Positions 16,435-56,663 of a DNA stretch of 64,000 nt are shown here, one piece after another (positions within the stretch are counted from its first letter, which is position 1; each line of letters opens with the position of its first letter). The stretch lies in the NCBI RefSeq assembly GCF_025380365.1, contig NZ_JAOCQF010000006.1, forward strand, positions 36,299 to 100,298, in the 5' to 3' direction. The DNA comes from Albidovulum sediminis. Its GTDB lineage: Bacteria > Pseudomonadota > Alphaproteobacteria > Rhodobacterales > Rhodobacteraceae. A model generated the notes under the pieces. It made no database searches. It saw only the letters and a list, made by a program, of their open reading frames with translations, and was not told the DNA's origin. The position numbers and the translations under genes were made by a program.

Positions 16435-16455
16435 GGCCTGGCCCGCTCAGCGTCG

Positions 16456-17766: not shown

Positions 17767-17820
17767 GATGCCGCCTTTCTGCTGCTGCGTCCCAATCGCA
17801 ACCACAGTGGCGGCTTGCGC

Positions 17821-17836
17821 TTAATATCCGCCTAAC
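17821..17836 (-). promoter_or_regulatory. Candidate CtrA box upstream of flgE
   Basis: On the plus strand the bases read TTAA, seven bases, CTAAC. This differs from the CtrA consensus TTAA-N7-TTAAC at one position. It lies 55-70 bases upstream of the flgE ATG. CtrA control of flagellar genes is known in alphaproteobacteria; use of this site is inferred. Confidence 0.4.
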
Positions 17837-17855
17837 GACAGATAACCTTTTCTTT

Positions 17856-18707: not shown

Positions 18708-18755
18708 CCCACCAGTTCCTTTCCTTCACCCGCTGACGACCCTATGACCAAACCC

Positions 18756-18771
18756 CTAACACAGGGCTAAC
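18756..18771 (-). promoter_or_regulatory. Candidate CtrA box upstream of motB
   Basis: The plus strand reads CTAA, CACAGGG, CTAAC: two CtrA-like half sites with the correct seven-base spacing and T-to-C changes at the first position of each. It is 49-64 bases upstream of motB, nearly the same placement as the flgE site. It lies in the divergent gap shared with pxpB. Confidence 0.35.
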
Positions 18772-18835
18772 CGCGCCGGGTTTACTCCGCCCGAGTGGCT
18801 GCTATGTGTGGGGCGGGTCCTGCGGAGAGGGGGAG

Positions 18836-41968: not shown

Positions 41969-42349
41969 ATGGCGACTGCCGGAACCGGGACTGTGAACAA
42001 ATCGGGCCGACCCGTCGCAGCAACCGCTGTCGGGCTTGGCGCAGCTCTTGCGGAACTGGAGCAGGCGGCACCTGGCGTGGCAGTCGGCATCCGCATCGTC
42101 GGTCACGACAACCGCGTGCGGCGACTGGGCAATGCGGCGATGAACGCCGCGCTGGCCGGAGGTGTCGTCTTCGACCGGTGCTGCATCCTTGCCGATCTGG
42201 TGAACGGCCAGTCCTATCAGCGGCTCAGCGTCGTGGTCAGCGAACCGGCCGCCGGACTTGGCATCGGGGCGCGGATCGCACTCGTCGCGACCGGGCTCGA
42301 GGTGCTGAATCAGCTGGACAATCTGGGATCTGCCTCGGTCGCCGCGTGA
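41969..42349 (+). CDS. Small orphan protein, first gene of the GTPase cluster
   Basis: A 126-aa protein from the ATG at 41969, just after GTGGAG; a GTG at 41903 would add 22 atypical residues. I recognise no family. It is Ala/Gly-rich with helices near GLGAALAELEQAAPGVAVGI and a core FDRCCILADLVNGQSYQRLS followed by VVVSEPAAGLGIGARIAL, without signal peptide or long hydrophobic helix. It starts the plus-strand set that continues with three GTPases. Its last codons overlap a possible GTG start of the next gene. It may be an adaptor for the large GTPase, but that rests on position only. Confidence 0.6.
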   Translation: MATAGTGTVNKSGRPVAATAVGLGAALAELEQAAPGVAVGIRIVGHDNRVRRLGNAAMNAALAGGVVFDRCCILADLVNGQSYQRLSVVVSEPAAGLGIGARIALVATGLEVLNQLDNLGSASVAA

Positions 42350-42384
42350 CGGCCGGAGCGGTGGAGTGGGGAAAGGATAGTTGG

Positions 42385-44415
42385 ATGGTGCGCAACAGGG
42401 ATCTTCTCAGATCGGGCAACGTTGCCTTTTCCGGACTTGCGGGCACTTTCGCAGAACTGTCGGACACGCTCGACCGGCTTGCGGCTGTTGCCGATGAACG
42501 AACCGGCTCGCGCGCGGCGGCGTTGAAGGCGCGGCTCCAGGAGTTTTCGGCAAAGATCACCTTCGTCGGGCAGGTCAAGGCCGGCAAGTCGGCGCTGGCC
42601 AACGTCCTGACGGCGTCGCCGGCCTTGTTGCCTTCGGACGTCAACCCGTGGACCTCGGTCGTCACCACGCTTGCGATCAACACCAAGGCCCCAGTCGATG
42701 CAGAGGGGCCGGCCAACACCAAGGCGCGCTTCACCTTCTTCAACCGCGACGAATGGGACAATCTCGTGGTCGGCGGCGGGCGGCTGGGCGAACTTGCCGA
42801 ACGCTCCGGCGCGCAGGACGAACTGGCCGACATCCAGCGTCAGGTCGAAGCCATGCGGGAGGCCACCAAGGCGCGGCTGGGCAAGCATTTCGAGCTGCTG
42901 CTGGGTCAGCACCACGCCTATGGCTATGTCGATCCCGAACTGGTGGAACGCTATGTCTGCCTTGGCGACGAGGCCGACCTGCGGGAGACGAACGCCAAGA
43001 CCGGGCGATTTGCCGACATCACCAAGTCGGCCGAACTCTACCTTGATATCCCCGAGTATGACGTCTCGCTCACGCTGTGCGACACGCCGGGGGTCAACGA
43101 TACCTTCATGATGCGTGAACAGATCACGCTCAGAAGCCTTCGCGGTTCGGAGCTTTGCGTCGTGGTCCTGTCCGCCCATCAGGCACTGTCGACCGTCGAC
43201 ATGGCCCTGATGCGCATCATCTCCAACCTCGAGAACCGCCAGATCATCCTGTTCGTCAATCGCGTGGACGAGCTTCAGAACCCTGCGGAGCAGATCGACG
43301 AGATCCGCACCGGTATTCAGGCGACGCTGAAGAAGTTCAACATCGCCTCGGATGTCGCGATCGTCTTCGGCAGCGCCAAGTGGGGCGAAGCCGCCCTGAC
43401 CGGAACCCGTGACGGCCTTTCGTCCGACAGCCAGCGCGCGCTGGACGCCTATGCGGTGGCCCGCCCCGATCTGGCCGGGCGCGACGAATGGGAAACGGTC
43501 TGGAACCTGTCGGGCGTGCCCGGCCTTCTGACCGCGATCGGCGAGAGGGTGACAGAGGGTGCCGGCCGCCGGCTGTTGGAGCGTGTGCGCCGCAATGCCC
43601 GCAACCTGACGAACGAGGCGCGCGCCACGCTGATGGCGCGCCGTTCCGATGGCGGGGCCGTCACCGTCGACTTCGCGGGCCACTCCGCCACCTCGGTCAT
43701 GACGCAGCTTGCGGCCAAGTATGAGGCTGACGTTGCAGTCCTGTGCCAGCAGCTGCGCGACGACCTGATGCAACGGATGGAGACGTCGGAGTCGGGCTTC
43801 GTGAAGCGTGCGACGGATTCGCTCATCGAACATCTGGAACGGCACGGTGAAAGCGGCACCTGGCAGTACGATCCGACCGGACTTCGGGTGTTGCAGCGCG
43901 CCGCCTACCTGAGTTTCGCACGCGCCCTTTCGGCGCGGCTCTCCAAGCTTTACGAGGATGCGGCCCGCCATGTCGAGGCGATCTATGCCGCCGTGCTTTC
44001 GGGCGGCGTCGCCGATTTCCGGATCGAGGCGCCTCAACCGCCGCGCGTTCCCGCGCCGGTGGGCCTTGGCAAGACGCTCGCGCTCGACCTGCAAAGCACC
44101 TGGTGGCGCCGCTGGTGGCAGAAGCGTCGTGGCTATGAAGCCTATGCCAAGGACTATGCGCATCTGATCCGCGCCGAGGCGCATTCGATCACCAAGGATC
44201 TTGAGGAAACCCAGGTCGCCTCGGTGCTCGAGAACGCGCGCGCGATCCTGCGCGAGTTCCTGAGGGAGCATCAGGAGACCATCCGCAGGATCACCCAGCC
44301 CGATGCCGCGAACGCCGAGGACGCGCGCAAGGCGCTCGAGGTGCTGCAATCCGGAACCGATACCAGTGCCGCGTTCGGAGAGATCCTGCGCGGGCTTGAT
44401 GACATGGCAGCCTGA
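42385..44415 (+). CDS. Dynamin-like GTPase (large, cluster GTPase 1)
   Basis: A 676-aa P-loop GTPase from the ATG at 42385, seven bases after AAAGGA; a GTG at 42346 overlapping the previous stop is an alternative. G1 is GQVKAGKS (residues 62-69), G3 DTPG (233-236, in CDTPGVNDTF) and G4 NRVD (292-295). Residues ~440-676 are mostly alpha-helical. Within them a Trp/Arg patch, WWRRWWQKRRG (573-583), could insert into or bind a membrane, as paddle regions of bacterial dynamins do. No transmembrane helix is evident. It heads a set of three unlike GTPases and faces a kinase-phosphatase set. Family assignment to dynamin-like GTPases is good; role unknown. Confidence 0.82.
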   Translation: MVRNRDLLRSGNVAFSGLAGTFAELSDTLDRLAAVADERTGSRAAALKARLQEFSAKITFVGQVKAGKSALANVLTASPALLPSDVNPWTSVVTTLAINTKAPVDAEGPANTKARFTFFNRDEWDNLVVGGGRLGELAERSGAQDELADIQRQVEAMREATKARLGKHFELLLGQHHAYGYVDPELVERYVCLGDEADLRETNAKTGRFADITKSAELYLDIPEYDVSLTLCDTPGVNDTFMMREQITLRSLRGSELCVVVLSAHQALSTVDMALMRIISNLENRQIILFVNRVDELQNPAEQIDEIRTGIQATLKKFNIASDVAIVFGSAKWGEAALTGTRDGLSSDSQRALDAYAVARPDLAGRDEWETVWNLSGVPGLLTAIGERVTEGAGRRLLERVRRNARNLTNEARATLMARRSDGGAVTVDFAGHSATSVMTQLAAKYEADVAVLCQQLRDDLMQRMETSESGFVKRATDSLIEHLERHGESGTWQYDPTGLRVLQRAAYLSFARALSARLSKLYEDAARHVEAIYAAVLSGGVADFRIEAPQPPRVPAPVGLGKTLALDLQSTWWRRWWQKRRGYEAYAKDYAHLIRAEAHSITKDLEETQVASVLENARAILREFLREHQETIRRITQPDAANAEDARKALEVLQSGTDTSAAFGEILRGLDDMAA

Positions 44416-44429
44416 GGGGGGCTGGCAGA

Positions 44430-45836
44430 ATGACTGACAGGCAGAAAAGAAGACGGCGCCCCGTTTCCGCAGCCGGCATGACCCGGCTTGAAGGCTGGGC
44501 CAGCCGCAAGCCCTGCATCGCCCTGATGGGCGAGTTCAGCGCAGGCAAGACGACGCTGACAAACCTTCTGGTCGGCGAGGATGTCCTGCCGACGCGCGTC
44601 ACCGCCACCCAGCTTCCCCCGGTGTGGATGAGCTATGGCGAACCGCAGGCGTGGTACGTCGATACCGAAGGCCAGCGGCACGACCTGTCCTTCGATGACC
44701 TGCACGGGGTCCCGGTCGAGGGGGTCCGTTACATCCGCCTGTTCTGCAAGGGCCGCATCCTTGAGACCATCGACCTGATCGACACCCCCGGCATTTCGGA
44801 CCCGAACATCCCGAAGGCGGTCTGGGAAATGGCCGTCGGCTATGTCAACGCGGTGATCTGGTGCACCCATTCCACGCAAGCCTGGCGGGAATCGGAGCGT
44901 AGCGCGTGGGAATCCCTGCCCGAACGGCTGCGCGAGAACTCCATCCTGCTCGCAACCCGGTCCGACAAGCTGTTGCCGGCGGAACGGGAACGTGTCGCGC
45001 GCCGCCTTCGCCGTGAGGCGGGCGACATGTTCCGCAGCATCATCATGTTCTCTGCCCAGGATGCCTTGCGTGCGGCGAGCGTGGAGGACGCCGGGGATCT
45101 CTGGTCGGAAAGCGGGGGCGAGGCGCTTCTGGCGGCGCTGCATGAAGTGGCCCATGACATCATCGAGACGCGAAAGGGGATGCTGTCGCGCTATGCGGTG
45201 ATCGACGGCGACGGCGCCCTGCCATCACCGCCGCGCAATGTCCGCTCCATCCGGCCGAACCGCGTGGACCGGGAGGACGGCGCCACCCGCACCCGGCTGA
45301 GCCGGAACGATGCCGACTCCCTGCGGTCGCGCATCATGGACGACGAAACCGGCCCATCCGCGCCATCGGTTCGACCCGATGCCGAGGTCCTGCACCTGAG
45401 CTTCGCGCTGCGTGTCCCCAAGGCCGAGGAGGTCGAGCCGCATCAACCCGAAGCGGAACCCGATCGCGGTGCCAGCGAAGACGAGTCTGATGCCGCCCTC
45501 GCCGATACCGCGATGGCGCCGGAGACGAATGAGGCTTGCGACCTGCGGGACGGCGCGGAAACGGATCTCGTCGGGGAATGTGCAGACACTGACGCCGCCA
45601 CCCCGGACGATGGCGAGGAGCCCACGGACGACGGCGAAGCGGAAGAACAGGGTGAGGCGGAACCGCAATCCGCCGCGCGCCTCTGGCGCGAGGTGGTGGC
45701 GGCAGAGCCGGAGGTCCGGACCGTCCAGGACGTGATCGCCCTGTTCGAAAAGTTCCTGATCGCCGTGGATCGTGCCGAAGGGATCGAGCCTGAGGCCGGT
45801 CAGGGCGCGGACGGGGGCCTGCGGCGCCACGGGTAA
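44430..45836 (+). CDS. Dynamin-type GTPase with acidic tail (cluster GTPase 2)
   Basis: A 468-aa protein. G1 GEFSAGKT is at residues 34-41, G3 DTPG at 118-121 (in LIDTPGISDPNIP) and G4 TRSD at 176-179. The GTPase domain ends near residue 250. A basic/polar stretch then leads into about 100 acidic residues rich in Glu, Asp and Ala (about 325-425). The last ~45 residues hold a helix containing LWREVVAAEPEVRTVQDVIA. It starts 14 bases after the large GTPase. Paired dynamin-like GTPases of unequal size often work as heteromers; the acidic tail could be a docking or phosphorylation segment. The function is unknown. Confidence 0.8.
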   Translation: MTDRQKRRRRPVSAAGMTRLEGWASRKPCIALMGEFSAGKTTLTNLLVGEDVLPTRVTATQLPPVWMSYGEPQAWYVDTEGQRHDLSFDDLHGVPVEGVRYIRLFCKGRILETIDLIDTPGISDPNIPKAVWEMAVGYVNAVIWCTHSTQAWRESERSAWESLPERLRENSILLATRSDKLLPAERERVARRLRREAGDMFRSIIMFSAQDALRAASVEDAGDLWSESGGEALLAALHEVAHDIIETRKGMLSRYAVIDGDGALPSPPRNVRSIRPNRVDREDGATRTRLSRNDADSLRSRIMDDETGPSAPSVRPDAEVLHLSFALRVPKAEEVEPHQPEAEPDRGASEDESDAALADTAMAPETNEACDLRDGAETDLVGECADTDAATPDDGEEPTDDGEAEEQGEAEPQSAARLWREVVAAEPEVRTVQDVIALFEKFLIAVDRAEGIEPEAGQGADGGLRRHG

Positions 45837-45897
45837 AGGGACGCCCTTCGGGCACTGGAAAAAGCCGGCGCATGCCTGTAATCGGGAACCTGCGGAA

Positions 45898-45911
45898 CCG
45901 CGAAACCGCGG
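45898..45911 (+). promoter_or_regulatory. Small hairpin touching the ribosome site of the next gene
   Basis: CCGCG (45898-45902) and CGCGG (45907-45911) form a 5-bp stem with an AAAC loop. The second arm merges with the GGAGG ribosome site of the gene at 45921, so it could lower its translation. Confidence 0.3.
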
Positions 45912-45920
45912 AGGCAGGGC

Positions 45921-46310
45921 ATGGCGCTAAACGAACTGATGGATGGCACGCTTCAGGCACTGCCGGAATCTCTTGCGATCTGCTATGTGGACATGCCCGA
46001 AGAGTTGGTGCTCACCCGGCGAACCGTCCGGCCATTCAATCAGGAAACACTCGATGCCCTTGCCACGCTTGCTGCGCGGATGCTTGACGGGCGCGGGATT
46101 TCTTCGGCCTGGCGGCTTGCCACCAACGCCCCTGACGGCGCCAGCCCGGATGAGGCGGTGGTTCGCAACGGCGACCATACCTGCCTTTTCCTGCGGATGC
46201 CCGGACATGCCGACCATGCACTTTGCCTTGTCTGCCGCAGCGGCGCAGATGTCGCACTGGTGCGACTTGCGGGAAGGCAACTGGGGAAGGACATTGCAAA
46301 TGCTCTCTGA
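45921..46310 (+). CDS. Small cytosolic protein, possibly roadblock/LC7-like
   Basis: A 129-aa protein after a clear GGAGG site. The order of predicted elements (an N-terminal helix MALNELMDGTLQALPES, a strand AICYVDM, a long central helix TLDALATLAARMLDG, then strands around HTCLFLRMPG and HALCLVCRSG, and a final helix RLAGRQLGKDIANAL) resembles the roadblock/LC7 fold of MglB-type proteins. Those bind and regulate small GTPases, which would fit its place between GTPase genes. No database check was possible, so this is a fold suspicion, not an identification. Confidence 0.6.
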   Translation: MALNELMDGTLQALPESLAICYVDMPEELVLTRRTVRPFNQETLDALATLAARMLDGRGISSAWRLATNAPDGASPDEAVVRNGDHTCLFLRMPGHADHALCLVCRSGADVALVRLAGRQLGKDIANAL

Positions 46311-46360
46311 ATCCGCAGGATTCAGGCGCCGGAACGGATAGCGGAAGGGCGTCGGTCGCA

Positions 46361-47098
46361 ATGGCGGTCAGTCGTGAAATCATGTCGATCATGGCCGGGA
46401 TCGAGGCCTTGGCCGAACCGCGGCCCCATTCGGCGCGGCTCCTGCCCGGAAAGTCGGCGACCGCGCGGCTCGAGGCGATCCTGAGAACGATCAACGGTAC
46501 CGTTCTGCCGCGACGTCTGGTCTTCCGGTGCGATGGCGCAGACAGGATCGTGCTGCTTGCGCGCAGCGGCCGGCTGATCTCGCTCGAGGGAGGGGCCTTG
46601 CAGGCTCTGGATGAAATGGCGGCGGCGCTTGTGGGCCACGCACGCCTTGATGGCGTCCACCGCTTCGAGGTGCAACTGGCCGAAGATACCGATGCCGCCG
46701 TCGGGGTCTCGACCGCGGATCTTCGTTCGGCCTGCCTTGCCGCGCTTCGTTTGGCCGAGAGCGAGGACTCGGGCGATTTCGCCGCCCGGATGGAGGCGCT
46801 TGCGCTGGCCTCCGCCCGTATGGATGCCGCGGGGGGTATTGACGACCGCAAGGGCGAGGTCGCCCGTCTGCCCGGGGCGAACGACGCCGAACTGGTTTCC
46901 GACGTCGCTGCGGTGCGCGCGGCGATGCGCCACCTTGGCGGCGAGGGTCTGTTCGCGGTCGGCGCAGGCGAAGGCGACGCAAGTCGCTTTTTCCTCGTTC
47001 AGGATGGCGCGGATGCACGGATCGGTGTGACATTCCAGGGCAAGCTTGACCGGCTGATCCGTGCCTGGGCGGAAACCAGGCGGCCGGACAGCGCCTGA
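46361..47098 (+). CDS. Orphan protein of the GTPase cluster
   Basis: A 245-aa protein from the ATG at 46361; a second ATG at 46382 is possible and the ribosome site is weak for both. I recognise no family. It has no signal peptide or membrane helix. A middle stretch VFRCDGADRIVLLARSGRLI reads as paired strands, and the last part SRFFLVQDGADARIGVTFQG is similar in style, so it may contain two related alpha/beta modules. It sits between the roadblock-like gene and the third GTPase, at 50 and 27 bases respectively. Confidence 0.6.
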   Translation: MAVSREIMSIMAGIEALAEPRPHSARLLPGKSATARLEAILRTINGTVLPRRLVFRCDGADRIVLLARSGRLISLEGGALQALDEMAAALVGHARLDGVHRFEVQLAEDTDAAVGVSTADLRSACLAALRLAESEDSGDFAARMEALALASARMDAAGGIDDRKGEVARLPGANDAELVSDVAAVRAAMRHLGGEGLFAVGAGEGDASRFFLVQDGADARIGVTFQGKLDRLIRAWAETRRPDSA

Positions 47099-47125
47099 TC
47101 CGCGGCGCAAGCGAGGAGCGTGACG

Positions 47126-48439
47126 ATGGTGGCCTTTCCGAGAGCGGATACAGAAGCAGAGATCCTGCGTCGTTTTCTTGCCGTTCTGGACGGTGCCGCG
47201 GCACAGGGCGACCCCTCGCTTGAAAACGCGCGTGCGCAGGCGGAAAGCTACCTTTCCCGGCTCGAGGCTCCGGTGCGGATTGCCGTCGTCGGTCTTTCGC
47301 GGTCGGGAAAGTCGAGCCTCGTCAACCTGCTTGTGGGGGAAGCAGTCATTCCGACGCAGCCGCGCAAGTCGGTCATGCCGGCGGTCATCCTGCGTCACTG
47401 CGAGGGCAACCGCACGACGGCCAGCTGGTGGGATCGGGAAGACAGGGTCTTCGACGGTCTCGACCTGCAGGGCGCCTTGTCGGAATCCCCCGACATCATC
47501 TCGATCGGCATCGACTGCGAGGTGCTTCGGGACGTCTGGCTCATGGACCTTTCGGACCTGGAGGATTCGGGCGCCCAGGCCAACACGCTGTTCGTCCTCA
47601 ACCGTCTTGCCGACATGGTCGTCTGGTGCACCAACGCGGAAGACCCTTGGACGGCCGAGGAGCGCCACCTGTGGGGGCTGGTCCCGAAGGCTGTCCAACG
47701 CCGGGCGATCCTCGTGATGACCCACGCAGATCACCTGTCGGCCGGAACGCTTACGCCCACGCTCGAACGGCTGCAGACAACCGTCGGCGCGGCCTTCAGG
47801 AAGGTACTTCCCATTTCCATCAGCGATGCATGGCGCGCCTTGTTGGGAGAGGTGACGCAACCCGAGCGGGCATGGGTGGCAAGCGGGATCGAACCCTTCA
47901 TGGTTGCCATGATGGAAATGGCGGTCGACTGCCGCAAGACCGAGGTGGAGAAGGTGCGCCGTGGCATGGCGCAGCATCTGGAGCCCCTGCTGGCCCAACT
48001 TCCGGTGACGCCCGCGACGATCACGGCGCCGGCGCCGACTGCGGCAAGGGCCGAGCCACGGGCGGCCGCTGGGTCGAAATCCGATCCGGTTCCCCCCGCT
48101 GCCGGCCGGCCGGCACTTCAGCCGGTTCAGGCAAGCCCGGCCCTGCTTGCCTGGAAGAAGCGGGTCGAGGGCGTCCTGGACAGCCTGCGCACCGGCGTGA
48201 TCGAACAGGACGGGGAATTCCTGACCGCCGCGCAGGATGCGGTGTCGTTCTTCCTCGACGATCTGGCGATGTTGCGCGATCTGTCCGACGCGGATGCCTG
48301 GATCGAACGCGAGTTCCAGCGCGCGCAGGACCTGCTGATCCTGATGCAGTACGAAGGCGAGGCGTCGAATGCCGAAACGGCGGCCTTGCTTCTGGCGCAG
48401 CTGACCGACGGGCTGGCGCAATCCGGCGCGGCCGCCTGA
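47126..48439 (+). CDS. Dynamin-type GTPase-like protein with degenerate G3 (cluster GTPase 3)
   Basis: A 437-aa protein from the ATG at 47126, seven bases after GAGGAG. G1 GLSRSGKS is intact (residues 56-63), followed by VNLLVGEAVIPTQPRKS. The expected G3 DTPG is replaced by DLSD (141-144, in WLMDLSDLED), and G4 reads THAD (199-202). Loss of the G3 glycine and threonine suggests weak or absent hydrolysis, so it may be a nucleotide-bound scaffold or regulatory partner. A Pro/Ala-rich linker (about 300-345) leads to a C-terminal helical domain. It ends the plus-strand set; a hairpin follows. Confidence 0.78.
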   Translation: MVAFPRADTEAEILRRFLAVLDGAAAQGDPSLENARAQAESYLSRLEAPVRIAVVGLSRSGKSSLVNLLVGEAVIPTQPRKSVMPAVILRHCEGNRTTASWWDREDRVFDGLDLQGALSESPDIISIGIDCEVLRDVWLMDLSDLEDSGAQANTLFVLNRLADMVVWCTNAEDPWTAEERHLWGLVPKAVQRRAILVMTHADHLSAGTLTPTLERLQTTVGAAFRKVLPISISDAWRALLGEVTQPERAWVASGIEPFMVAMMEMAVDCRKTEVEKVRRGMAQHLEPLLAQLPVTPATITAPAPTAARAEPRAAAGSKSDPVPPAAGRPALQPVQASPALLAWKKRVEGVLDSLRTGVIEQDGEFLTAAQDAVSFFLDDLAMLRDLSDADAWIEREFQRAQDLLILMQYEGEASNAETAALLLAQLTDGLAQSGAAA

Positions 48440-48465
48440 CACCTTCGACGCGGGGCGTAAAAGAA

Positions 48466-48492
48466 CAGGGCCCGCGCGCGGCACGGGCCCTG
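48466..48492. terminator. Bidirectional hairpin between the two convergent gene sets
   Basis: CAGGGCCCG (48466-48474) and CGGGCCCTG (48484-48492) are perfect inverted copies with a nine-base loop. It lies 27 bases after the third GTPase and 28 before the stop of the minus-strand binding-protein gene. Confidence 0.7.
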
Positions 48493-48520
48493 GGATTGCA
48501 CGGCGCCCGAAGGCTGCCGG

Positions 48521-49624
48521 TCAGTTCGACATTTCCATCATCTTCTTGTTGTGCTCATCAAGCGTGCTCGAGATGATCGCATACCATTCGCCGGTATTGC
48601 GCATCTCGGTCAGGCCGCGGTTCAGGAGCGTGATGTACTGCTTGCCGAAGGGGTTCGACTTGTGGGTGATGAACGACATCGACAGCACCTTCGACAGGCT
48701 GGGGTTCTCGACCACGTCCGAACCGATCCCGAGCTTGGCGATGGCGTCGGCGGCAGACTGGACCTCCATCCCGGCCACATCTGCCGCGCCCGTCATCAGA
48801 GCCTCCATGCAATCTTCCGGCAGCACCGGGCGGACAAGCTCGATCGCGGGCGGGACCAGTCCCTCCTCCTCGAGGTCGAAGGTGAAATAGCCGTCCATCC
48901 GGCAGATGCGGGCGCCCTTGTAGTCCGCAAAGCTCGTCGCGCCGGCGAAGGCGCTGTCCTTCGTGGTGTAGTAGCCGACGACAGGCTCATAGACCGGCAG
49001 GGTCGAGTCGAACTGGTCGCAGCGATACTTCATCGAGTCGCTCAGAAGGTCCCGCTTCTCGCAGTTCGGCATGTACCAGCCAAGCCCGACGTCGAAGGCG
49101 CCGGTCGGAAGCAGCGTCTCAAGATGCGCCGCCCAGTCGTTGACGAAGGCCGTGGCATAGTCGCGCGTGTTGCCGCCGCGGTGCATCGCCGTCTCGGCCA
49201 GCCGGATCAGGAAGCCGCCGCCGTCAAGCGCCTCGTCGCTGAAAGGGGCGTAGTTGCCGCCGGCAAGGAACTTGACCGGCGGTTCGTAGGCGTTCGACTT
49301 CGGACGCTCCGCGGCAATCTTGTTCTGTTCCTCGATGATCTGGGCGGCGGTCGCGTCGCCGGCAATCGAGCCATCCGCGCAGGGCAGGTTCAGGACGGTG
49401 CCTTCCGTCAGCCCCGCCGGGTTGTCACCGATCACCTCGCGGTTGGCGTTGAATATGTTCTGATAGTCGCCCGTGCCGTAGGCGGCCTGTGCGATCGTGC
49501 CCAGCGTGTCGCCGGCCTTGACGGTGTAGGCCGTGCAAGCTTCCTGCGCGAGCGCAGAGGTTCCAAGCAGCAGTGCCGACGCCCCGCCAGCCGCGACACG
49601 GAAAAGGATTTGTCGAGATTCCAT
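48521..49624 (-). CDS. Secreted LysM plus solute-binding-domain protein 1
   Basis: A 367-aa protein with a signal peptide ending near ALA-QEACTAY. Residues ~30-85 are a LysM module (YTVKAGDTLGTIAQAAYG, then IFNANREVIG), which would bind peptidoglycan. From about 115 on is a family 3-like periplasmic binding domain (VKFLAGGNYAPFSDEALDGG to the end). The mature protein has exactly six cysteines, all conserved in the two paralogues downstream on the plus coordinate. No permease or ATPase is adjacent, so it is probably a sensor or receptor rather than part of an importer. It is the last gene of the kinase-led set. Confidence 0.82.
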   Translation of the reverse strand: MESRQILFRVAAGGASALLLGTSALAQEACTAYTVKAGDTLGTIAQAAYGTGDYQNIFNANREVIGDNPAGLTEGTVLNLPCADGSIAGDATAAQIIEEQNKIAAERPKSNAYEPPVKFLAGGNYAPFSDEALDGGGFLIRLAETAMHRGGNTRDYATAFVNDWAAHLETLLPTGAFDVGLGWYMPNCEKRDLLSDSMKYRCDQFDSTLPVYEPVVGYYTTKDSAFAGATSFADYKGARICRMDGYFTFDLEEEGLVPPAIELVRPVLPEDCMEALMTGAADVAGMEVQSAADAIAKLGIGSDVVENPSLSKVLSMSFITHKSNPFGKQYITLLNRGLTEMRNTGEWYAIISSTLDEHNKKMMEMSN

Positions 49625-49717
49625 GTTTCAGTCTCCGTATTCCTGAGTAAAGCACCGCCCGGGGCCGTGCGTGGCTAGAATGTGCGCGGGTCGGGGCAGC
49701 CGACTCGCGCAAAGCGG

Positions 49718-50818
49718 TCAGTTCTGTGCCAGCTTCTCGTTCGCTTCCTTGAGCGAGCTTGCGACGATTTCGTACCACTCGCCGCTGTCGCGCATCTCAT
49801 CGAGGCCGGCGTTCAGCTCTTCGATGAATTCCACCGCCCGCGGGTTCGTCTTCGACGCCATCGCCGAGATTGCCTGGATCGAGGTGACGAAGGCGTTCTC
49901 CACGAATTCGTCGCCCAGGCCGAGTTCCAGGCGAACCGACACCATCGCCTGGGATTCGACCGACATCACGTCGTAGGTGCCCTGCATCACGCCTTCGGCG
50001 CAATCGGCCAGAGTCGGCGGGATGGAGATCGTCACCGCGGGTTCGATCAGACCGGCCTCGTCGAGGTCGTGCATCGAGTAGCCTTCAGGCCGACAGATAC
50101 GCGCACCCTTGTAGTCGGCCAGCGTCTTCGCTGCGGCATAGGGGCTGTCGGCGCGAGAGAAGAAGCCGAACACGGCGTCGTAGAGCGACTTGGAGAACAG
50201 GTAGTTGTCGCAGAAGTCGCGCGTCATGTCCGACATGCTGTCGGTCTTGGTGCAGTCCGGCGCATACCAGGCCACGCTGAGGTCGTAGGCATTGAAGGGA
50301 AGCAGCACCGACATGTGCGAATCCCAGTCGTCGACCCAGCCCAGAAGATAGTCCCGGTCATTGCCCGCGCGGTGCATGGCCGTTTCCACGAGGCGGATCA
50401 GGAAGCCGCCGCCGGTCAGGCCCTCGTCCGTGAACGGATACCAGTCGCCACCGGTCACGAACTTCACCTTCGGCTTGTAAGCGTCGATCTGGACGGTGCT
50501 GCGGTTCTGCGCTTCCGCGGTCGATTTCGCCACGTCCGGACTTTCGTCCTCGGCGCTCAGACGCCCGTCGGGGCAGGGCAGGATCAGCTCGGTTCCGGGT
50601 TTCAGCCCCGAGATGTCGTTGCCGATCTTGTCGCGGTTGGCGTTGAACACGATCTGGTAGTCGAGGGTGCCATAGGCCTTGATGGCAATGTTGCCGATCG
50701 TGTCACCGTCCTGAACGACATAGGTCGAACAGGCCTGCTGCGCCGAGGCGGATCCGAAGAACGCGGCGGCGAGGAGGGCTGACGCCGGAAGTGCTTTGCA
50801 AGTGGAGCGCAAGATCAT
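49718..50818 (-). CDS. Secreted LysM plus solute-binding-domain protein 2
   Basis: A 366-aa paralogue of its neighbours, from the ATG at 50818 after AGGAGA. Signal peptide, then LysM (YVVQDGDTIGNIAIKAYG, IVFNANRDKIGND), an acidic linker and the binding domain starting VKFVTGGDWYPFTDEGLTGG. The six mature cysteines match those of the other copies: ACSTY, ILPC, APDC, RDFC, ARIC and LADC. Apart from one signal-peptide cysteine there are no others. Its ligand is unknown. Confidence 0.82.
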   Translation of the reverse strand: MILRSTCKALPASALLAAAFFGSASAQQACSTYVVQDGDTIGNIAIKAYGTLDYQIVFNANRDKIGNDISGLKPGTELILPCPDGRLSAEDESPDVAKSTAEAQNRSTVQIDAYKPKVKFVTGGDWYPFTDEGLTGGGFLIRLVETAMHRAGNDRDYLLGWVDDWDSHMSVLLPFNAYDLSVAWYAPDCTKTDSMSDMTRDFCDNYLFSKSLYDAVFGFFSRADSPYAAAKTLADYKGARICRPEGYSMHDLDEAGLIEPAVTISIPPTLADCAEGVMQGTYDVMSVESQAMVSVRLELGLGDEFVENAFVTSIQAISAMASKTNPRAVEFIEELNAGLDEMRDSGEWYEIVASSLKEANEKLAQN

Positions 50819-50941
50819 CTGCTGATCTCCTTTCGGTTCTTGGCCGCCCTTGGCGGGACTGGCCCTGATCTGAGGTTTCTGGGTTCGGGGGACTCTCTGC
50901 CGTGGTGGGGCCCGCTTCGTGCGAGAATCGGGCGGCAACGG

Positions 50942-52036
50942 TCAGTTCTTCTTCATCTCCTCCTCGGTCTGGGCCATCAGCCCGGCGGAGACGATGTCGA
51001 ACCACTCGCCGCTTTCACGCATCTCGGTCAGCCCGCGGTTGATTACGTCGAGAATTTCGCTGCTGTGCGGGTTCGACTTGTGAACCATCACGCGCAGGGT
51101 CTTGACCTGTGCGAGGTGGGGATCTTCGACGATGTCGTTCTTGAGCCCGAGGTCGGACAGCGCGTCAGAGGCCACCTGCACCTCGAGGTGCACGACATCG
51201 ACGGCGCCGGTTGCCAGCCCCTCGAAGCAGTCTGCCGGGGTGGCCGGCCGTACCAGCGTGATCGCCGGCTCGACCAGGCCGACCGAGGTCAGGCCCGAGA
51301 GAGAGTAGCTTTCGGGGCGGCAGATACGCTTGCCGACGAACTCCTCGTAGGTCTGTGCGGTCTCAAGCCCGCTGCCCTTGACCGCGAAGAAACCGTCGAC
51401 GATCTCGTAGAAGGACTCGGAGAAGTTGAAGTCAGTGCATCTGTAGGCGTCCTTCGGCGAAAGCACCCCCAGGTCGCCACAGTCCGGCTGGCTCCAGGGA
51501 AAGGTGGCATCGAAGGCCCGGCGCGGCAGCAGACTGTCAAGGTGCGCGCTCCAGTCGTTGACGAAGTCGATGGAGTAGTCCTGCTGCTTGTCACCGCGCA
51601 GCATCGCAGTCCGGACCAGCTTGGTGAAGATGCCGCCGTCCGGCAGATCCTCTCCGGTGAAGGGCGGGTAGTCGTTGCCGGTGACGAATGCGATCGCTGC
51701 CAGCGGGGTTGCGGCGGCTTCGGCCGTAGCCGCCGGGGCGGTGTCGGCGGGCGCTTCGGCGGCGGCAGGTGCGGGCGCGGAGGCCGTCTCGACGCAGGGG
51801 ATCTCGATCTGCTGCCCGACCTCGATCAGGTTGGGGTTGCTGCCGATGGCGGTGCGGTTGGCCTGGAAGATCTTCGAGAAATCGCCGTCGCCGAAGGCCC
51901 GTTTGGCGATGTTCGTCAACGTGTCGCCCCGCTTGATTGTGTAAGTCGAACATGCCTCCTGCGCGGCGGCGGAATAGGTGCCGGCCGACAGCGCAAGACA
52001 ACTGACCGCGAGGAGCCTCTGGAAGTCCGTTCGCAT
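50942..52036 (-). CDS. Secreted LysM plus solute-binding-domain protein 3
   Basis: A 364-aa paralogue and the most divergent of the three. Signal peptide, LysM (YTIKRGDTLTNIAKRAFG, IFQANRTAIGSN), an Ala/Pro-rich linker, and the binding domain from IAFVTGNDYPPFTGEDL. It shares the motif NDWSAHLDSLLPRRAFDA with its neighbours (NDWAAHLETLLP, DDWDSHMSVLLP). All six mature cysteines are conserved. It is the first of the three to be transcribed and lies 115 bases after the phosphatase gene. Confidence 0.82.
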   Translation of the reverse strand: MRTDFQRLLAVSCLALSAGTYSAAAQEACSTYTIKRGDTLTNIAKRAFGDGDFSKIFQANRTAIGSNPNLIEVGQQIEIPCVETASAPAPAAAEAPADTAPAATAEAAATPLAAIAFVTGNDYPPFTGEDLPDGGIFTKLVRTAMLRGDKQQDYSIDFVNDWSAHLDSLLPRRAFDATFPWSQPDCGDLGVLSPKDAYRCTDFNFSESFYEIVDGFFAVKGSGLETAQTYEEFVGKRICRPESYSLSGLTSVGLVEPAITLVRPATPADCFEGLATGAVDVVHLEVQVASDALSDLGLKNDIVEDPHLAQVKTLRVMVHKSNPHSSEILDVINRGLTEMRESGEWFDIVSAGLMAQTEEEMKKN

Positions 52037-52151
52037 GATGTTGCGCCCTTTCTCGAGCTTTGGGTTGCAGCGATCCTTTCGGCACCCTGGGGGCCGACCG
52101 GACCGGTTCTGATTTCGGGATTGGCCGCCGCGTCAGGGGGCCGCGAACTCG

Positions 52152-52919
52152 TTAACTGACCTTGATGACGGCAAAGGAAATGTTGTCCTGATCCGGATCC
52201 TCCAGAGACTGAACTTCTGCCATCAGCGCCTTGGCCAACTCGGCGCAGCTGTCTTCCTTGTAGCGATCGACGACCTGCTGGATCTCCGCGTCCGACAGGA
52301 ATTGCAGGCCATCGCTTGATGCAATGATGATATCGCCCGGACGCAGGGCCACGGGCGCCTTGCCACAGTCGATCCGCGGGATCGGCGCCCCCATCAGGAC
52401 CGATGTCAGGCAGTTACGGTCCGGGTGGTTGCGCGCCCTCTCCGGATCGAGCATTCCCGTGCGGACCATCAGGTCGATCTGCGGCGCCATGGAGTGGTCT
52501 TCGTTGACCTGCCGCAGCCTTCCGTCGCTGAAGACGTAGAGCGGAGAGTCCCCGACCGACACCCAGTGAAGGCGATCTTCCAGCAGCACCGGGGCGATCA
52601 GCGTCGTGCCCATCCCGGCGACGTCCCGATTGGCCGCGACGTAGGACGCGATGGTGTCGTTCGCGGCTGTCGTCACCTCGCGCAGGATCAGGGGAATATC
52701 CTCATCCTTGAGCGCATGTGGCTGCAGCCGCGCCTTCAGGCCGCGCGACACCTCGGTCACGACAATATTGCTGGCGACATCGCCCGCGGCGTGGCCGCCC
52801 ATGCCGTCGGCGAGGACGGCAAACCCAAGCGCGTGATCCTTGAGGAACGCGGTCGCTACCGCATCCTCCTGATACTCGCGCTTGCCCTTGTTGATGGCTG
52901 TTGCGACGTCATAACGCAT
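52152..52919 (-). CDS. PP2C-type protein phosphatase
   Basis: A 255-aa protein from the ATG at 52919 (MRYDVATAINKGKREYQEDA). Metal-binding aspartates are in YQEDA (Asp19) and VLADGMGGHAAGD (Asp38), with VGDSPLY, SSDGLQFLSD and a final DQDNISFAVIKV completing the PPM fold. It would remove phosphates from Ser/Thr residues placed by the adjacent kinase. The FHA gene ends 16 bases upstream of its start. A kinase-FHA-phosphatase trio is a known phospho-signalling arrangement, for example in type VI secretion, but no secretion genes are present here. Confidence 0.92.
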   Translation of the reverse strand: MRYDVATAINKGKREYQEDAVATAFLKDHALGFAVLADGMGGHAAGDVASNIVVTEVSRGLKARLQPHALKDEDIPLILREVTTAANDTIASYVAANRDVAGMGTTLIAPVLLEDRLHWVSVGDSPLYVFSDGRLRQVNEDHSMAPQIDLMVRTGMLDPERARNHPDRNCLTSVLMGAPIPRIDCGKAPVALRPGDIIIASSDGLQFLSDAEIQQVVDRYKEDSCAELAKALMAEVQSLEDPDQDNISFAVIKVS

Positions 52920-52935
52920 TGTTTCAATGTCTTTC

Positions 52936-53982
52936 TTACTCGGTTCCCCAGACGAAGTCCTCACCGCAGAAAGCGACGAAGGACATCGTGGTCTCCCCAA
53001 TGCGGATCAGGTCGCCGTCCGAGAGCGGCTCGGTGCTCAGTACCGGCTTGCCGTTCAGCCGGACGATGTTGGCCTTGCCGCCGTGCCCGAGGTAGAACTT
53101 GCGATCCTCGTCGTCGAAGGCGATCGCCGCATGGTTGTTGCGCGAGATCGAGTTGTCGCCGAAGTCAAGCTGGATCGCCTGGTCGTCGCCGCGCCCGATC
53201 TGCGACACGCCGGCACCGATGGCGATGGCGGTGCCACGGCCCGGGCCCTTGATGATCACGACCCAGCCGAAGGGGAACTCGCAGCGCCCGGTGTTGTCCT
53301 TCGCAGGGGCCTCGCGCTGGAACACATCCTCGATCCGCCCGTCAGAGCGTTCGAAGCCCAGGAAGGTGGTCTTGACCCGGCTTCCCCGGCGCGGAGAGGA
53401 CGAAACCGCAGCCTCGGGCTCGGATGCATTCGACTGCGGCTCGGACCGCGCTGCCGTCGGGGCGGGCGCGGGTGCGGGAACGGCGGCGGGAACCGGGGTG
53501 GCGGGCTTTACCGCGTTCTCCGGCAGCAGTCGCAGGATTTCGGCGATCGGCTCCCGGACGGGTTGCGGCTCCGTGGGCCGGATGGGCAGGATCGACGGCT
53601 CCGCCTGAGGCTCGGGGGCTGCGGCAGCATCCAGATCCAGCTCGGCGGTGTCGTCGACATCCAGGTCTTCCGCATCCGCATCAGCCTCTGGCAGAGGGGA
53701 GGTGACGGCCGCCCTTGCCGCCGCCATCACCAGTCTGTCGGCCTCGGCCTGTCTTTCGGAGTCATTGGTGCCGCGAAGCTGCTGCAGGACCGACTCGAAT
53801 GGCTCCACCATCAGGTGGGGATCGTCGAGGATGGGATCGGGCATCGCTGCTGGCTGCTCAGGTGAAGCGGCTTCGCCTTCGGGCGCCGCCGCCGCATCCT
53901 CCGGCCGCGCGGCTTTCCTGCGAGATACGAGATCAAAGGAAAAGCCCCTCTCGCTGAGCCCCGCCAACGGTCTAATACGCAT
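52936..53982 (-). CDS. FHA-domain protein
   Basis: A 348-aa protein from the ATG at 53982, eight bases after GAGG. The FHA domain is at the C-terminus (about 245-348), with the phosphopeptide-binding residues in IGRGDD (Arg264), SISRNNHA (Ser280, His284) and RLNGKPV (Asn311). The first ~240 residues are low-complexity: Ala/Glu/Asp/Pro-rich, with few predicted structured parts. FHA domains bind phosphothreonine, so this is the expected reader of the adjacent kinase. No membrane helix is present. Confidence 0.9.
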   Translation of the reverse strand: MRIRPLAGLSERGFSFDLVSRRKAARPEDAAAAPEGEAASPEQPAAMPDPILDDPHLMVEPFESVLQQLRGTNDSERQAEADRLVMAAARAAVTSPLPEADADAEDLDVDDTAELDLDAAAAPEPQAEPSILPIRPTEPQPVREPIAEILRLLPENAVKPATPVPAAVPAPAPAPTAARSEPQSNASEPEAAVSSSPRRGSRVKTTFLGFERSDGRIEDVFQREAPAKDNTGRCEFPFGWVVIIKGPGRGTAIAIGAGVSQIGRGDDQAIQLDFGDNSISRNNHAAIAFDDEDRKFYLGHGGKANIVRLNGKPVLSTEPLSDGDLIRIGETTMSFVAFCGEDFVWGTE

Positions 53983-54053
53983 GATCGTGACCTCACGTTC
54001 CAGAATTCTTGTTCGCGCGCGAAATGCGCAATGACACTCGTACTGAAACAGGT

Positions 54054-54074
54054 CCGGCCCCGGAGCGGGGTCGG
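54054..54074 (-). terminator. G/C hairpin between kinase and FHA genes
   Basis: CCGGCCCCG (54054-54062) pairs with CGGGGTCGG (54066-54074), with one G-T wobble and a three-base loop. It lies ten bases after the kinase stop. Without a T run it may reduce, not block, read-through to the FHA gene. Confidence 0.4.
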
Positions 54075-54083
54075 CAGAAAGCC

Positions 54084-56663
54084 TTACTTCGTCGCCAGCG
54101 CGTAGGTCGCGGACGCCTTGACGCCGCCACGCTCGATCTCGAACTGCGCGACGGTTTCCCCCTCGTTCGCCAGTTTGCCGACGGCATCTTCCAGGCTGTC
54201 GGCGTGAACAAGCGCGATGCCGGTGAGTGTCTCGGACAGGATCACGTCGCCTTCGCGCAAAGTGGTCGGCGCGCTGCCCGTGGCCTTGACGACCACCGAC
54301 CACCGGTCGCCCTCAACGCGCGCTTCGGTGACCAGTCCGCCGGCCAGGCTCACACGCCGCATCACCGGAACCGCAAGCTGAACGCGGTTGTACTGGCTGT
54401 CACCGGGCAGTTTGATCCGGACCGACGCCCGGGCCATTCCGTCACGTTCGACCGAAAGGTTGCGCAGGATCAGCGCCCCGACGTTCTGGGACGGCGACAC
54501 CGGGTTGCCGTTCACCGAGAAGATCGTCGTGCCTTCGCGAATCCAGTCGCCCGCGATCGAGAAATCGGCCGTCTCGTCGACCGAGCGGATGGTGGCGTAG
54601 TTGACGCCGCCGATGGTGCGGACGTTCGCAGTGAACGGAACGACAACGTCCCAGACCGCAAGCTCGACCTGGGACTCAGCCGGAACTGCGGGCGCAGTGG
54701 CCGCAACTTCCGCTGCCGGCGGTTCGGCGGCGGCAGTCTCGACGACCGGGCTTTCCGCGTCGGCGGTTGCGGTGGCTTCGGTTCCGGTCTCCACCACCGC
54801 GACGGGGGCCTCCGGTTCGTCGGTCACCGCGGTAGCGGCAGCTTCGACCGGCACCTCTTCCGGGGTTGGCGCGACTTGAGCGGCGACCGCGACCGTGGGT
54901 TCGGCCAGTTCGGCAACAGGGGCGACGGCGGCGACCTTCAGCGCTGCTGCCGCGACGGTTTCGGCCCTGTCTTCTGTCTCGGTCGCTACTGATGCGGTTG
55001 CCACGGGTGCGGTCGCTACCGGTACGGTCGCCAAGGGTGCGGTCGTGGCGGGGGCTTCGGCGGCCAAGGATACGCCTGCGACCTCAGCCGGGGCAGTCGA
55101 TGCATCCGCGGCGGGACTCTCCGTCGCGATGCCAGCCGGGACTTGCGCCTCCGCTGTGTCGGGGAAACCGGCGACAACGGCCGATGTCTCCTGCGGGATG
55201 GGCGCATCGGTCAACTCCGCCGCCGTCTCCTCTGCGACCGCGGGCACGGCTTTCACCGCAGGCGCGGGCGTAACGGAGGCCTGCTCTGCCGGGGCGGACG
55301 CCGTGGGCGATGCCGCTTCGGGCGAGGGCGTAGGCGGCGTGACGAGCGTATCGGCGCCATCCATGCGCAGCACGAAGTAGCCGAGCACCGCAAGCACCGC
55401 GACAGCCGATAGCCCCATCAGCAGGCCGCGCCCGGAACCGCCCCGCGCGGCAGGCAGCGGCTGAGGCTGAGGCTTGCTGGAAATCCTTGTCGGCTGCACC
55501 GGCGCGGGGGCGGCAGGCCCCGCCGCGGTTTCGGCCTCAGCGAGGTTCCGGACCTCCGGTTCCTTCGAAGGCGCGTCCGCTTCGGGCTGCCTTGCGACCG
55601 GGGCGCTGGCCACCTTCGGCTCTGCCGCAGATGCCTTCGGTTCCGGAAGCACAACTTGGACCTCGGGCTCCAGCGTCTGTTCGCTCAGCAGGCGGGACAC
55701 GGCAGCCAGCGGATCGGCATCGCGGATTTGCTGCGACGGATTGGCCAGCATTTCCAGCCATGCAGCCGCATTCTGGATGCGCCGACGCGGCACCGCATTC
55801 AATGCCTTGTCGATCGCCTCGAGAAAGCCCAGCGGGTATCCCGGGAACCGGCCCGAGAGGGCCTCGTAGGGGTCGGCGTTGCCTTCCGCGATCGCGGCAA
55901 GGCGGACCTGGCTGTTTGCCGGCGGCTGGCCGGTGATGGCGTGATAGAGCGTCGCCGCCAGCGCGTAGAGATCGCTCCACGGCCCTTGTTCGCTGCCGGC
56001 AATGTAGAACTCCTGGGGGGAATAGCCGTCCTTCACCACCCTGAGTGCCGACAGGGCGCGGCTGGCGCGTGTCGCTTCCTCGCGCGCGGCGCCGAAGTCG
56101 ATCAGGATCGGCTCGCCCTTCTTGTTGATCAGGATGTTGTCGGGCGAAATGTCACGATGCAGGATGCCGCTGTCGTGGATGAAGCCCACCGCCGCCAGCA
56201 GCTTGTGGGTCATCGTCACGATCTTCGACGGAGTCATCTCGATGGCCGGGTCATCGATCATGTCCAGAAGGTCGCGCCCGTCGATGAAGTCGATGGCCAT
56301 ATAGGCGGTGTCGTTGTCCTCGAAGACCTGATGCACGCCGACGATGTTGGGATGGGCAAGCTTGGCCAAGCTGCGCGCTTCCTGCACGAACAGCTTGACG
56401 ATGGAGCGGAATTCAGCCTGGTGCGCACGCGACCGCGCGCCCACGATGGTGTCGCTGCGGCGGCAGAAGTTTCCGGGAAAGCACTCCTTGATCACCACAT
56501 CGCGTTCAAGGCTGTCCTTGGCCAGGTAGGTGATCCCGAAGCCGCCGCTGTTGATGAACCGCGTGATCGTGTACTGCCCCTGAAGCAACTTCGTGCCGGG
56601 CTTGAGTTCGTCAACGAACTCCTCCCGTGCAGCTTGCTCAGCGGCGAGTTGCGGTGCAGTCAT
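54084..56663 (-). CDS. Membrane Ser/Thr protein kinase with periplasmic PDZ-like domains
   Basis: An 859-aa protein from the ATG at 56663, after GGGGAAG. The N-terminal kinase domain (about 31-300) has the loop NSGGFGITYLAKD, the ATP lysine Lys59 in VVIKECFP, HRDISPDN (169-176) and DFG (189-191). The usual catalytic-loop lysine after HRDx is Ser here, as in other kinases of this GGFGITYLA group. One membrane helix follows at about 413-433, then an Ala/Thr/Val/Pro-rich linker to about 670. Residues 674-859 contain two PDZ-like units (around WIREGTTIFSVNGNPVS and TLREGDVILSETLTG). The topology puts the kinase in the cytoplasm and the tail in the periplasm, near the LysM proteins it is encoded with. 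Confidence 0.88.
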   Translation of the reverse strand: MTAPQLAAEQAAREEFVDELKPGTKLLQGQYTITRFINSGGFGITYLAKDSLERDVVIKECFPGNFCRRSDTIVGARSRAHQAEFRSIVKLFVQEARSLAKLAHPNIVGVHQVFEDNDTAYMAIDFIDGRDLLDMIDDPAIEMTPSKIVTMTHKLLAAVGFIHDSGILHRDISPDNILINKKGEPILIDFGAAREEATRASRALSALRVVKDGYSPQEFYIAGSEQGPWSDLYALAATLYHAITGQPPANSQVRLAAIAEGNADPYEALSGRFPGYPLGFLEAIDKALNAVPRRRIQNAAAWLEMLANPSQQIRDADPLAAVSRLLSEQTLEPEVQVVLPEPKASAAEPKVASAPVARQPEADAPSKEPEVRNLAEAETAAGPAAPAPVQPTRISSKPQPQPLPAARGGSGRGLLMGLSAVAVLAVLGYFVLRMDGADTLVTPPTPSPEAASPTASAPAEQASVTPAPAVKAVPAVAEETAAELTDAPIPQETSAVVAGFPDTAEAQVPAGIATESPAADASTAPAEVAGVSLAAEAPATTAPLATVPVATAPVATASVATETEDRAETVAAAALKVAAVAPVAELAEPTVAVAAQVAPTPEEVPVEAAATAVTDEPEAPVAVVETGTEATATADAESPVVETAAAEPPAAEVAATAPAVPAESQVELAVWDVVVPFTANVRTIGGVNYATIRSVDETADFSIAGDWIREGTTIFSVNGNPVSPSQNVGALILRNLSVERDGMARASVRIKLPGDSQYNRVQLAVPVMRRVSLAGGLVTEARVEGDRWSVVVKATGSAPTTLREGDVILSETLTGIALVHADSLEDAVGKLANEGETVAQFEIERGGVKASATYALATK

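Follow-up and report, generated by a model that had tools for sequence, protein, structure and literature searches.

What could join dynamin-like GTPases to a Ser/Thr kinase, an FHA protein and a PP2C phosphatase, and do genes for such proteins that merely lie side by side form one system at all? The question is raised by positions 41969-56663 of a 64,000-nucleotide stretch of the genome of Albidovulum sediminis (assembly GCF_025380365.1, contig NZ_JAOCQF010000006.1, positions 36,299 to 100,298), which is referred to below as the window. Twelve genes, six per strand, are arranged there in two arms that converge on a hairpin, with short gaps within each arm. The GTPase arm lies on the plus strand and the sensor arm on the minus strand. 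The two arms are one linked Rhodobacteraceae system: the same families recur together in varied orders and orientations, which puts their association beyond chance. It is somewhat probable that the linked set is a phosphorylation-switched membrane-remodelling machine.

The genes and the hairpin, with the names used in this text, are as follows (window coordinates).

41969..42349, plus strand: ORPH1, small protein without a Pfam match
42385..44415, plus strand: DYN, large dynamin-like GTPase with Dynamin_N and intact G1, G3 and G4 motifs
44430..45836, plus strand: GTP2, second dynamin-type GTPase, with Dynamin_N and motifs
45921..46310, plus strand: ROB, predicted roadblock/LC7 (MglB-like) protein, from its predicted structure
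46361..47098, plus strand: ORPH2, two-part protein, C-terminal half roadblock-like according to its predicted structure
47120..48439, plus strand: GTP3, third dynamin-type GTPase, P-loop present, G3 degenerate (DLSD)
48466..48492: hairpin separating the convergent arms, T-run confined to the minus strand, resembling a terminator of the minus arm
48521..49624, minus strand: LYS3, LysM and solute-binding-like protein, start signal-peptide-like (judged by eye)
49718..50818, minus strand: LYS2, LYS3-type protein (LysM and solute-binding-like)
50942..52036, minus strand: LYS1, LYS3-type protein (LysM and solute-binding-like)
52152..52919, minus strand: PP2C, phosphatase with PP2C_2 and a DGMGGH motif
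52936..53982, minus strand: FHA, protein with a conserved Thr motif directly before the FHA domain
54084..56663, minus strand: KIN, Ser/Thr kinase with one membrane segment (by eye) and a predicted extracytoplasmic tandem PDZ-like tail at about residues 660-859

The twelve open reading frames (ORFs), their order, strands and short spacing within the arms are as given in a first-pass annotation made from the sequence alone. The shared bidirectional hairpin that it described fared less well: a hairpin of 12 pairs exists, but a bidirectional action is not supported, the T-run being confined to the minus strand, and its fold is only mildly better than that of shuffled sequences (z -1.85; 8 of 200 shuffles are equally good). 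A promoter scan returned no site and an Rfam scan no match. In public annotation, the parts appear as 'dynamin family protein', 'serine/threonine-protein kinase' or 'protein kinase', 'FHA domain-containing protein', 'protein phosphatase 2C domain-containing protein', 'transporter substrate-binding domain-containing protein' and 'hypothetical protein'.

Conservation and linkage of the two arms

A protein search with DYN returned 1,915 proteins; the named ones among the best 120 listed come from Rhodobacterales, e.g., Ruegeria and Albidovulum/Defluviimonas. In the best 80 of 464 DYN loci, the sensor and GTPase arms are repeatedly adjacent, in varying order. Since those 80 loci were picked by DYN similarity and are rich in Ruegeria, a gene-blind sample of 158 Rhodobacterales genomes from 76 genera was used. 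DYN turned out to be present in 62 of these genomes and 28 of the genera. For mapping, seventy regions of at most 20 kb each were taken around DYN and searched with profile hidden Markov models (HMMs), built from the loci already gathered, for eight core families: KIN, FHA, PP2C, GTP3, DYN, GTP2, ROB and ORPH2. The window's genome apart, 45 of the 61 DYN genomes carry all eight families within 8.1-13.9 kb on one strand (G013 being counted with a kinase cut by a contig end). The order is KIN-FHA-PP2C-GTP3-DYN-GTP2-ROB-ORPH2 in 42 of the 45 and DYN-GTP2-ROB-ORPH2-GTP3-KIN-FHA-PP2C in three. Five Ruegeria-type genomes are complete once the regions are extended, and the total of linked genomes, the window's included, is 51 of 62. 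The layouts differ: the arms are convergent in the window and in Leisingera, divergent in Actibacterium (L008), and fused into one operon in Silicimonas and others.

Eleven DYN genomes are not complete. Contig ends interrupt the set in two of them (G080, G072), and ORPH2 is unrecognised at E<=1e-5 in another two (G071, where it scores E 5e-5, and G041). The kinases of G155 are located elsewhere in the genome, the modules of G057 are split, and G082, on a 15-kb contig, is without GTP3, ROB and ORPH2. The remaining four (G019, G063, G088, G094) have DYN-GTP2 only. Co-occurrence across the sample points the same way: DYN is present in all 57 genomes with ROB (Fisher p 1e-37), and KIN (E<=1e-40) is found in 64 genomes, 59 with DYN and 5 without (p 2e-33), both values being uncorrected for kinship. 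Because the genomes are related, linkage kept across different orders is better evidence than these tests. Outside the window's own family, DYN at E<=1e-30 was found in neither the class sample (385 genomes, five of that family) nor the phylum sample (299 genomes, fifteen of it).

The opposite reading, that the arms are independent and mere neighbours, could appeal to their convergence in the window and to the few genomes in which modules stand apart. These comprise, without DYN, KIN-FHA-GTP3-ROB-ORPH2 and KIN-FHA-PP2C-GTP3-ROB-ORPH2 (both in G057), together with the partial modules KIN-FHA-PP2C-GTP3 (G060), KIN-FHA-PP2C (G133) and KIN-PP2C (G008, G142); KIN-LYS-LYS without other parts occurs in G151 and G155 (it stands alone in L187 and L188). 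The one-strand clusters in 45 of 61 genomes speak against this reading, as does the joint presence of KIN and DYN in 59 of 62 (in G094 only by a weak KIN match of 155.7 bits). Chance neighbourhood was rejected on these grounds, and independence is highly improbable. The first-pass annotation had regarded both arms as one system, to be abandoned if they met in a few genomes only; the counts of 59 and 51 out of 62 bear it out.

Kinase, FHA protein and phosphatase

The sensor arm was correctly read as containing a Ser/Thr kinase, an FHA protein and a PP2C phosphatase, all with Pfam matches: Pkinase on KIN (5e-29), FHA on the FHA protein (36.3, above cut-off) and PP2C_2 on PP2C. In the alignments, the kinase active site is well kept (HRD.SP.N in 108 of 114 rows, DFG in 114 of 114), and so is DGMGGH of the phosphatase (74 of 74). 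A KT..LGF pattern precedes the FHA domain in 102 of 107 rows. The canonical FHA phosphothreonine-reader signature is GR ... SxxH; here, the S-to-H spacing is one residue longer, S[RK]xxH being found in 98 of 107 rows and S[RK]xH in none. In Kangsaoukella and Silicimonas (L067, L074), the FHA ORFs have 617 and 592 codons, about twice the usual length, the extra part being N-terminal.

The conserved Thr ahead of the FHA domain is reminiscent of the OdhI/GarA FHA switch, and the NCBIfam OdhI model matches the window FHA protein at 7.3e-5, far under its cut-off. The Thr motif of OdhI/GarA is, however, unlike KT..LGF.

The kinases are of two kinds. Of the 56 scored, 31 are short and 25 long, the long ones having a membrane segment and a tail outside; a membrane segment could not be scored in four of the short ones, and the mean hydropathy is above 1.5 in three of the remaining 27. 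The long-kinase tail profile matches the tandem PDZ of DegP (E 4.7e-5), and at E<=0.1 nine of 16 tails have a PDZ_6 match (best 1e-5); the PDZ matches of the window KIN itself lie below cut-off. By these profile matches, the long kinases are predicted to carry an extracytoplasmic tandem-PDZ tail. In this they differ from the PASTA-type wall-sensing kinases (PknB/Stk1): no PASTA repeat was matched in the window KIN up to E 1, and the NCBIfam PASTA-kinase model scores 130.2 against a cut-off of 450.

Kinase, FHA and PP2C also share one cluster in the threonine phosphorylation pathway PpkA-Fha-PppA of the type VI secretion system (T6SS). These are the same three enzyme classes, and the set might be a relative of that pathway still serving a secretion machine. 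The T6SS marker VipB is found in 44 of the 158 genomes and in 21 of the 62 with DYN (p 0.20); the window's genome has it on a different contig (C11 vs C17), and the annotation of the plasmid neighbourhoods viewed includes no T6SS gene. Window-type sets thus differ from PpkA-Fha-PppA in lacking T6SS co-occurrence. An association with T6SS was rejected because 41 of 62 DYN genomes are without VipB, and a secretion role for the set is scarcely credible.

The GTPase arm

All three GTPases of the window are of dynamin type by best Pfam match. The earlier claim of three GTPases holds fully for DYN and GTP2, whose Dynamin_N matches (44.6 and 39.2 bits) are above cut-off and whose motifs agree; GTP3 narrowly misses the cut-off (26.9 vs 27), and its G3 motif is degenerate in the window. 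Across the aligned rows, DYN keeps the P-loop, DxPG and [NT][KR]xD in 205 of 205 each. GTP2 has the P-loop in 155 of 155, DxPG in 150 and [NT][KR]xD in 133. The motifs of GTP3 are partial: G1 in 112 of 127 rows, G3 (D[TL]PG) in 50 and G4 in 99. DYN also has a conserved Trp/Arg-rich stretch, ALDLQ..WW.RWW.RR, which may contact the membrane. Its profile weakly matches the solved bacterial dynamin-like proteins 2j68 and 5owv, the latter of which we take to be the Campylobacter one. PADLOC and NCBIfam gave only weak or sub-cut-off matches on this arm. In Ruegeria, Roseovarius and Aliiroseovarius clusters (L009-L042, L045-L049, L055-L056), a second, diverged DYN copy lies between ORPH2 and GTP3.

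ORPH1, ROB and ORPH2 have no Pfam match; for ROB, matches up to E 1 were considered, Robl_LC7 included. The predicted structure of ROB (predicted local distance difference test score, pLDDT, 94.7) matches MglB and other solved roadblock proteins. ROB is thus predicted to be a roadblock-fold protein, in agreement with the first-pass annotation. That annotation called ORPH1 and ORPH2 orphans, which suits ORPH1; ORPH2 has a C-terminal half predicted to be roadblock-like. Its predicted structure (pLDDT 86.9) finds matches for residues 137-243 only, to roadblock proteins and with weaker scores than those of ROB; its profile gave no alignment with the ROB profile, and its sequence search of the PDB returned no match. 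The protein search yielded only five relatives of ORPH2, and the HMM mapping of neighbourhoods found it widely. ORPH1 is recognised mainly in one branch, which comprises the window, Ruegeria, Aliiroseovarius, Actibacterium and their kin. Family scans recognised no Ras-like GTPase among the twelve window genes.

The kinase-less DYN-GTP2 pairs have a small neighbour that appears weakly roadblock-like: Pfam Robl_LC7 matches one of three scanned at E 0.035, hhalign against ROB gives P 0.0018 with a probability of only 14.6%, and the sole PDB match is a roadblock protein at E 0.88.

The GTPases could also act as a relay upstream of the kinase: DYN, GTP2 and GTP3 with a roadblock scaffold would dock on the kinase and set its activity, and the kinase targets would be unlinked to the locus. 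GTP3 is often degenerate, and G057 has KIN-FHA-(PP2C)-GTP3-ROB-ORPH2 without DYN. There is also a precedent, since the dynamin-like RdcA is soluble and binds and activates DgcE (PMC6510439). On the other hand, DYN is the strictest part of the set and persists with only GTP2 in loci that lack the kinase, and its Trp/Arg stretch suggests membrane contact. The relay is therefore rated rather unlikely beside the phosphorylation-switched membrane-remodelling machine.

Binding proteins as candidate inputs

Pfam detects LysM on LYS1, LYS2 and LYS3 (on LYS2 below cut-off) and, under threshold, SBP_bac_3 on LYS1 and LYS2 only. The LYS proteins match structurally solved LysM proteins and, less strongly, amino-acid binding proteins; to the three LysM proteins named by the first-pass annotation a solute-binding-like domain can thus be added. 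LYS relatives were counted above 330 bits, a cut chosen after the scores had been seen. The genome has such relatives for 21 of 25 long-kinase loci vs 1 of 31 short ones, or 22 of 26 vs 1 of 30 when the window is added and the partial locus L148 dropped; with weaker relatives included, the short-kinase class rises to 7 of 31. The one short-kinase exception, G151, has a second, long kinase that adjoins two LYS genes. Kinase length switches only once on the DYN tree, so the Fisher value for this association reflects one event and is no replication. Independent support for the LYS-kinase link is the position of LYS next to KIN in several arrangements. Weaker, near-full-length LYS relatives are present in nine genomes without DYN. 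LysM and solute-binding relatives with no dynamin in the genome and no kinase recognised nearby (L195 in G004, a tandem pair; L196 in G058; L197 in G141) represent another use of the family.

All four long-kinase loci that are without LYS (G059, G043, G084, G053) have, beside the operon and on the same strand, a PBP-OmpA gene, whose product combines a periplasmic binding domain with an OmpA domain. The PBP-OmpA genes beside the operon are located as follows.

L120, 5070-6680: PBP-OmpA gene
L123, 4932-6527: PBP-OmpA gene
L125, 13416-15110: PBP-OmpA gene
L136, 4527-6125: PBP-OmpA gene
L213, 2648-4255: PBP-OmpA gene

The close form of this protein (>470 bits) occurs at 29 places in 18 genomes, all 18 with a long kinase; the wider family is widespread (123 of 158 genomes). 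The gene recurs as a neighbour across genera, whereas several other neighbours recur within one genus. Since the LYS-less long-kinase loci carry PBP-OmpA, the LysM and OmpA types seem to fill one seat beside the PDZ kinase, and PBP-OmpA is likely a stand-in for the LysM proteins. Genes with a PilJ domain lie by the operon in G053, G059 and G080 (and, by locus, in L120, L136 and L146). Of 28 distinct LYS proteins, which include near-copies, 20 have Asn as their C-terminal residue; that it serves as a PDZ ligand is a speculation. Only 25 of 56 kinases are long with an outer tail, 31 being short, and LysM sensing is therefore accessory, not core. The periplasmic or wall signal proposed earlier fits one branch, that of the long kinases.

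Plasmids, transfer and the question of defence

DYN was found on 18 plasmid records, all of Leisingera, Ruegeria or Rhodobacter, and PLSDB rates all 18 as non-mobilizable. The 32.8-kb plasmid of Leisingera aquaemixtae has the complete eight-gene set, as checked with HMMs; on a 71.7-kb Leisingera plasmid, where all eight families are likewise recognised, the layout is convergent like that of the window. On a quick DYN tree, the window DYN falls among Ruegeria-type sequences and apart from G106, which belongs to its own genus; this suggests transfer. A plasmid of Rhodobacter sp. CZR27 (L211, 817-8844) carries a run of four dynamin genes with a sensor histidine kinase gene behind them, which is another pairing of a kinase with dynamins.

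Patchiness (62 of 158 genomes), plasmid records and the grouping of the window DYN with other genera would also suit a mobile anti-phage or stress-defence module that seals or kills the membrane upon infection. PADLOC adds weak matches of DYN to the LeoA/LeoBC models (6.6e-10, 9.2e-7); KIN weakly matches many PD-T4-6 kinase models, but any Ser/Thr kinase domain would do so. The plasmid flanks, as annotated, hold mainly metabolic, transport and stress genes, and none of the recurring neighbours identified is a defence gene, in flanks that had no systematic defence scan. DYN has no match in phage records and none confirmed in viral contigs, where only close relatives were sought; a phage origin of DYN was rejected with the same scope. 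A defence function is accordingly improbable.

Neighbouring genes

The recurring neighbours identified encode GAPDH, a hydrolase, a methyltransferase, LysR, an ABC ATPase, PBP-OmpA and PilJ. In Sulfitobacter algicola and Pseudaestuariivita rosea (L050, L052, ~15400-21300), genes named by eye as MotB-like, FlgE, FlgK, FlgL and FlgI come after the GTPase arm, on its strand. A link of the gene set to flagella or polarity is possible. Elsewhere in the window, a DUF898 membrane protein (59383-60573) and an M48 peptidase (60583-61707) are encoded downstream of a parC-like gene; this pair is not among the recurring neighbours of the gene set. ARAGORN calls two tRNAs without Rfam support, tRNA-Pro(cgg) at 1515-1587 and tRNA-Ala(ggc), of 69 nt, at 18976-19044; the latter lies within ORFs and is probably a false call.

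Comparison with known systems

The combination appears to be undescribed: none like it was found among the matches listed in the literature searched, which leaves most subscription journals outside, and the earlier statement that no named system has such a composition agrees with this. Nearest in logic are the conservons (Cvn) of Actinomycetota, in which a sensor of kinase type shares an operon with a GTPase and an MglB-type roadblock protein (PMC13343842), as here. The conservon sensor CvnA is histidine-kinase-like and the GTPase Ras-like, whereas the window set has a Pkinase-type Ser/Thr kinase, FHA, PP2C and dynamin-type GTPases. The MglA-MglB polarity module likewise pairs a roadblock protein with a GTPase, and the ROB model matches MglB; its cognate GTPase is Ras-like, in contrast to the dynamin-type partners in the window set.

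The E. coli RdcA-RdcB/DgcE system resembles the set in employing a dynamin-like GTPase, with a small partner, in signal transduction. Its target is a cyclase, and a Ser/Thr kinase, FHA, PP2C and a roadblock protein are absent from its description in the accessible portion of the report (PMC6510439). Bacterial dynamins work in pairs (PMC6104087). Cj-DLP1/2, DynA/B, LeoABC and Nostoc BDLP have two or more adjacent dynamin genes. The window set differs in having three dynamin-type and two roadblock-type proteins. To our knowledge, a phosphorylation circuit has not been reported in the operons of bacterial dynamin pairs.

Proposed mechanism and its significance

We assume that, in the long-kinase branch, which includes the window, periplasmic binding proteins would pass a cue derived from the wall or from a ligand on to the PDZ tail, and that this cue would alter kinase activity. 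In the short-kinase branch, a cytoplasmic cue would drive the same core. Targets of the kinase would be the conserved Thr that precedes the FHA domain and, probably, residues in proteins of the GTPase arm; PP2C would reverse these marks. The phospho-state of FHA would decide whether the roadblock pair permits GTP binding by DYN-GTP2, with GTP3 as a partly degenerate third subunit of the assembly. Once assembled on the inner membrane, DYN-GTP2 would tether, bend or repair it. Precedents for this scheme are the pairing of bacterial dynamins (PMC6104087) and the signal relay by RdcA/RdcB (PMC6510439). More tentatively, and with some doubt as to the whole, the set may be a self-contained, plasmid-borne, phosphothreonine-gated dynamin machine, with interchangeable LysM/OmpA wall-anchored binders, a tandem-PDZ receptor kinase, an FHA adaptor and two roadblock proteins gating a dynamin trio.

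The function and regulation of bacterial dynamins are a long-open question. The fixed-order gene unit points to likely regulators of one dynamin family, namely, a kinase, a phosphatase, an FHA adaptor and roadblock proteins, and the 32.8-kb plasmid of Leisingera aquaemixtae is a natural short version of the set that could be deleted as a block. If the proposal is true, it would join Ser/Thr phosphorylation, roadblock regulation and dynamins, fields that have so far been investigated separately in bacteria. It would also provide the first roadblock proteins that control dynamin-like rather than Ras-like GTPases, and the first case of bacterial membrane remodelling under the control of a Ser/Thr kinase receptor.

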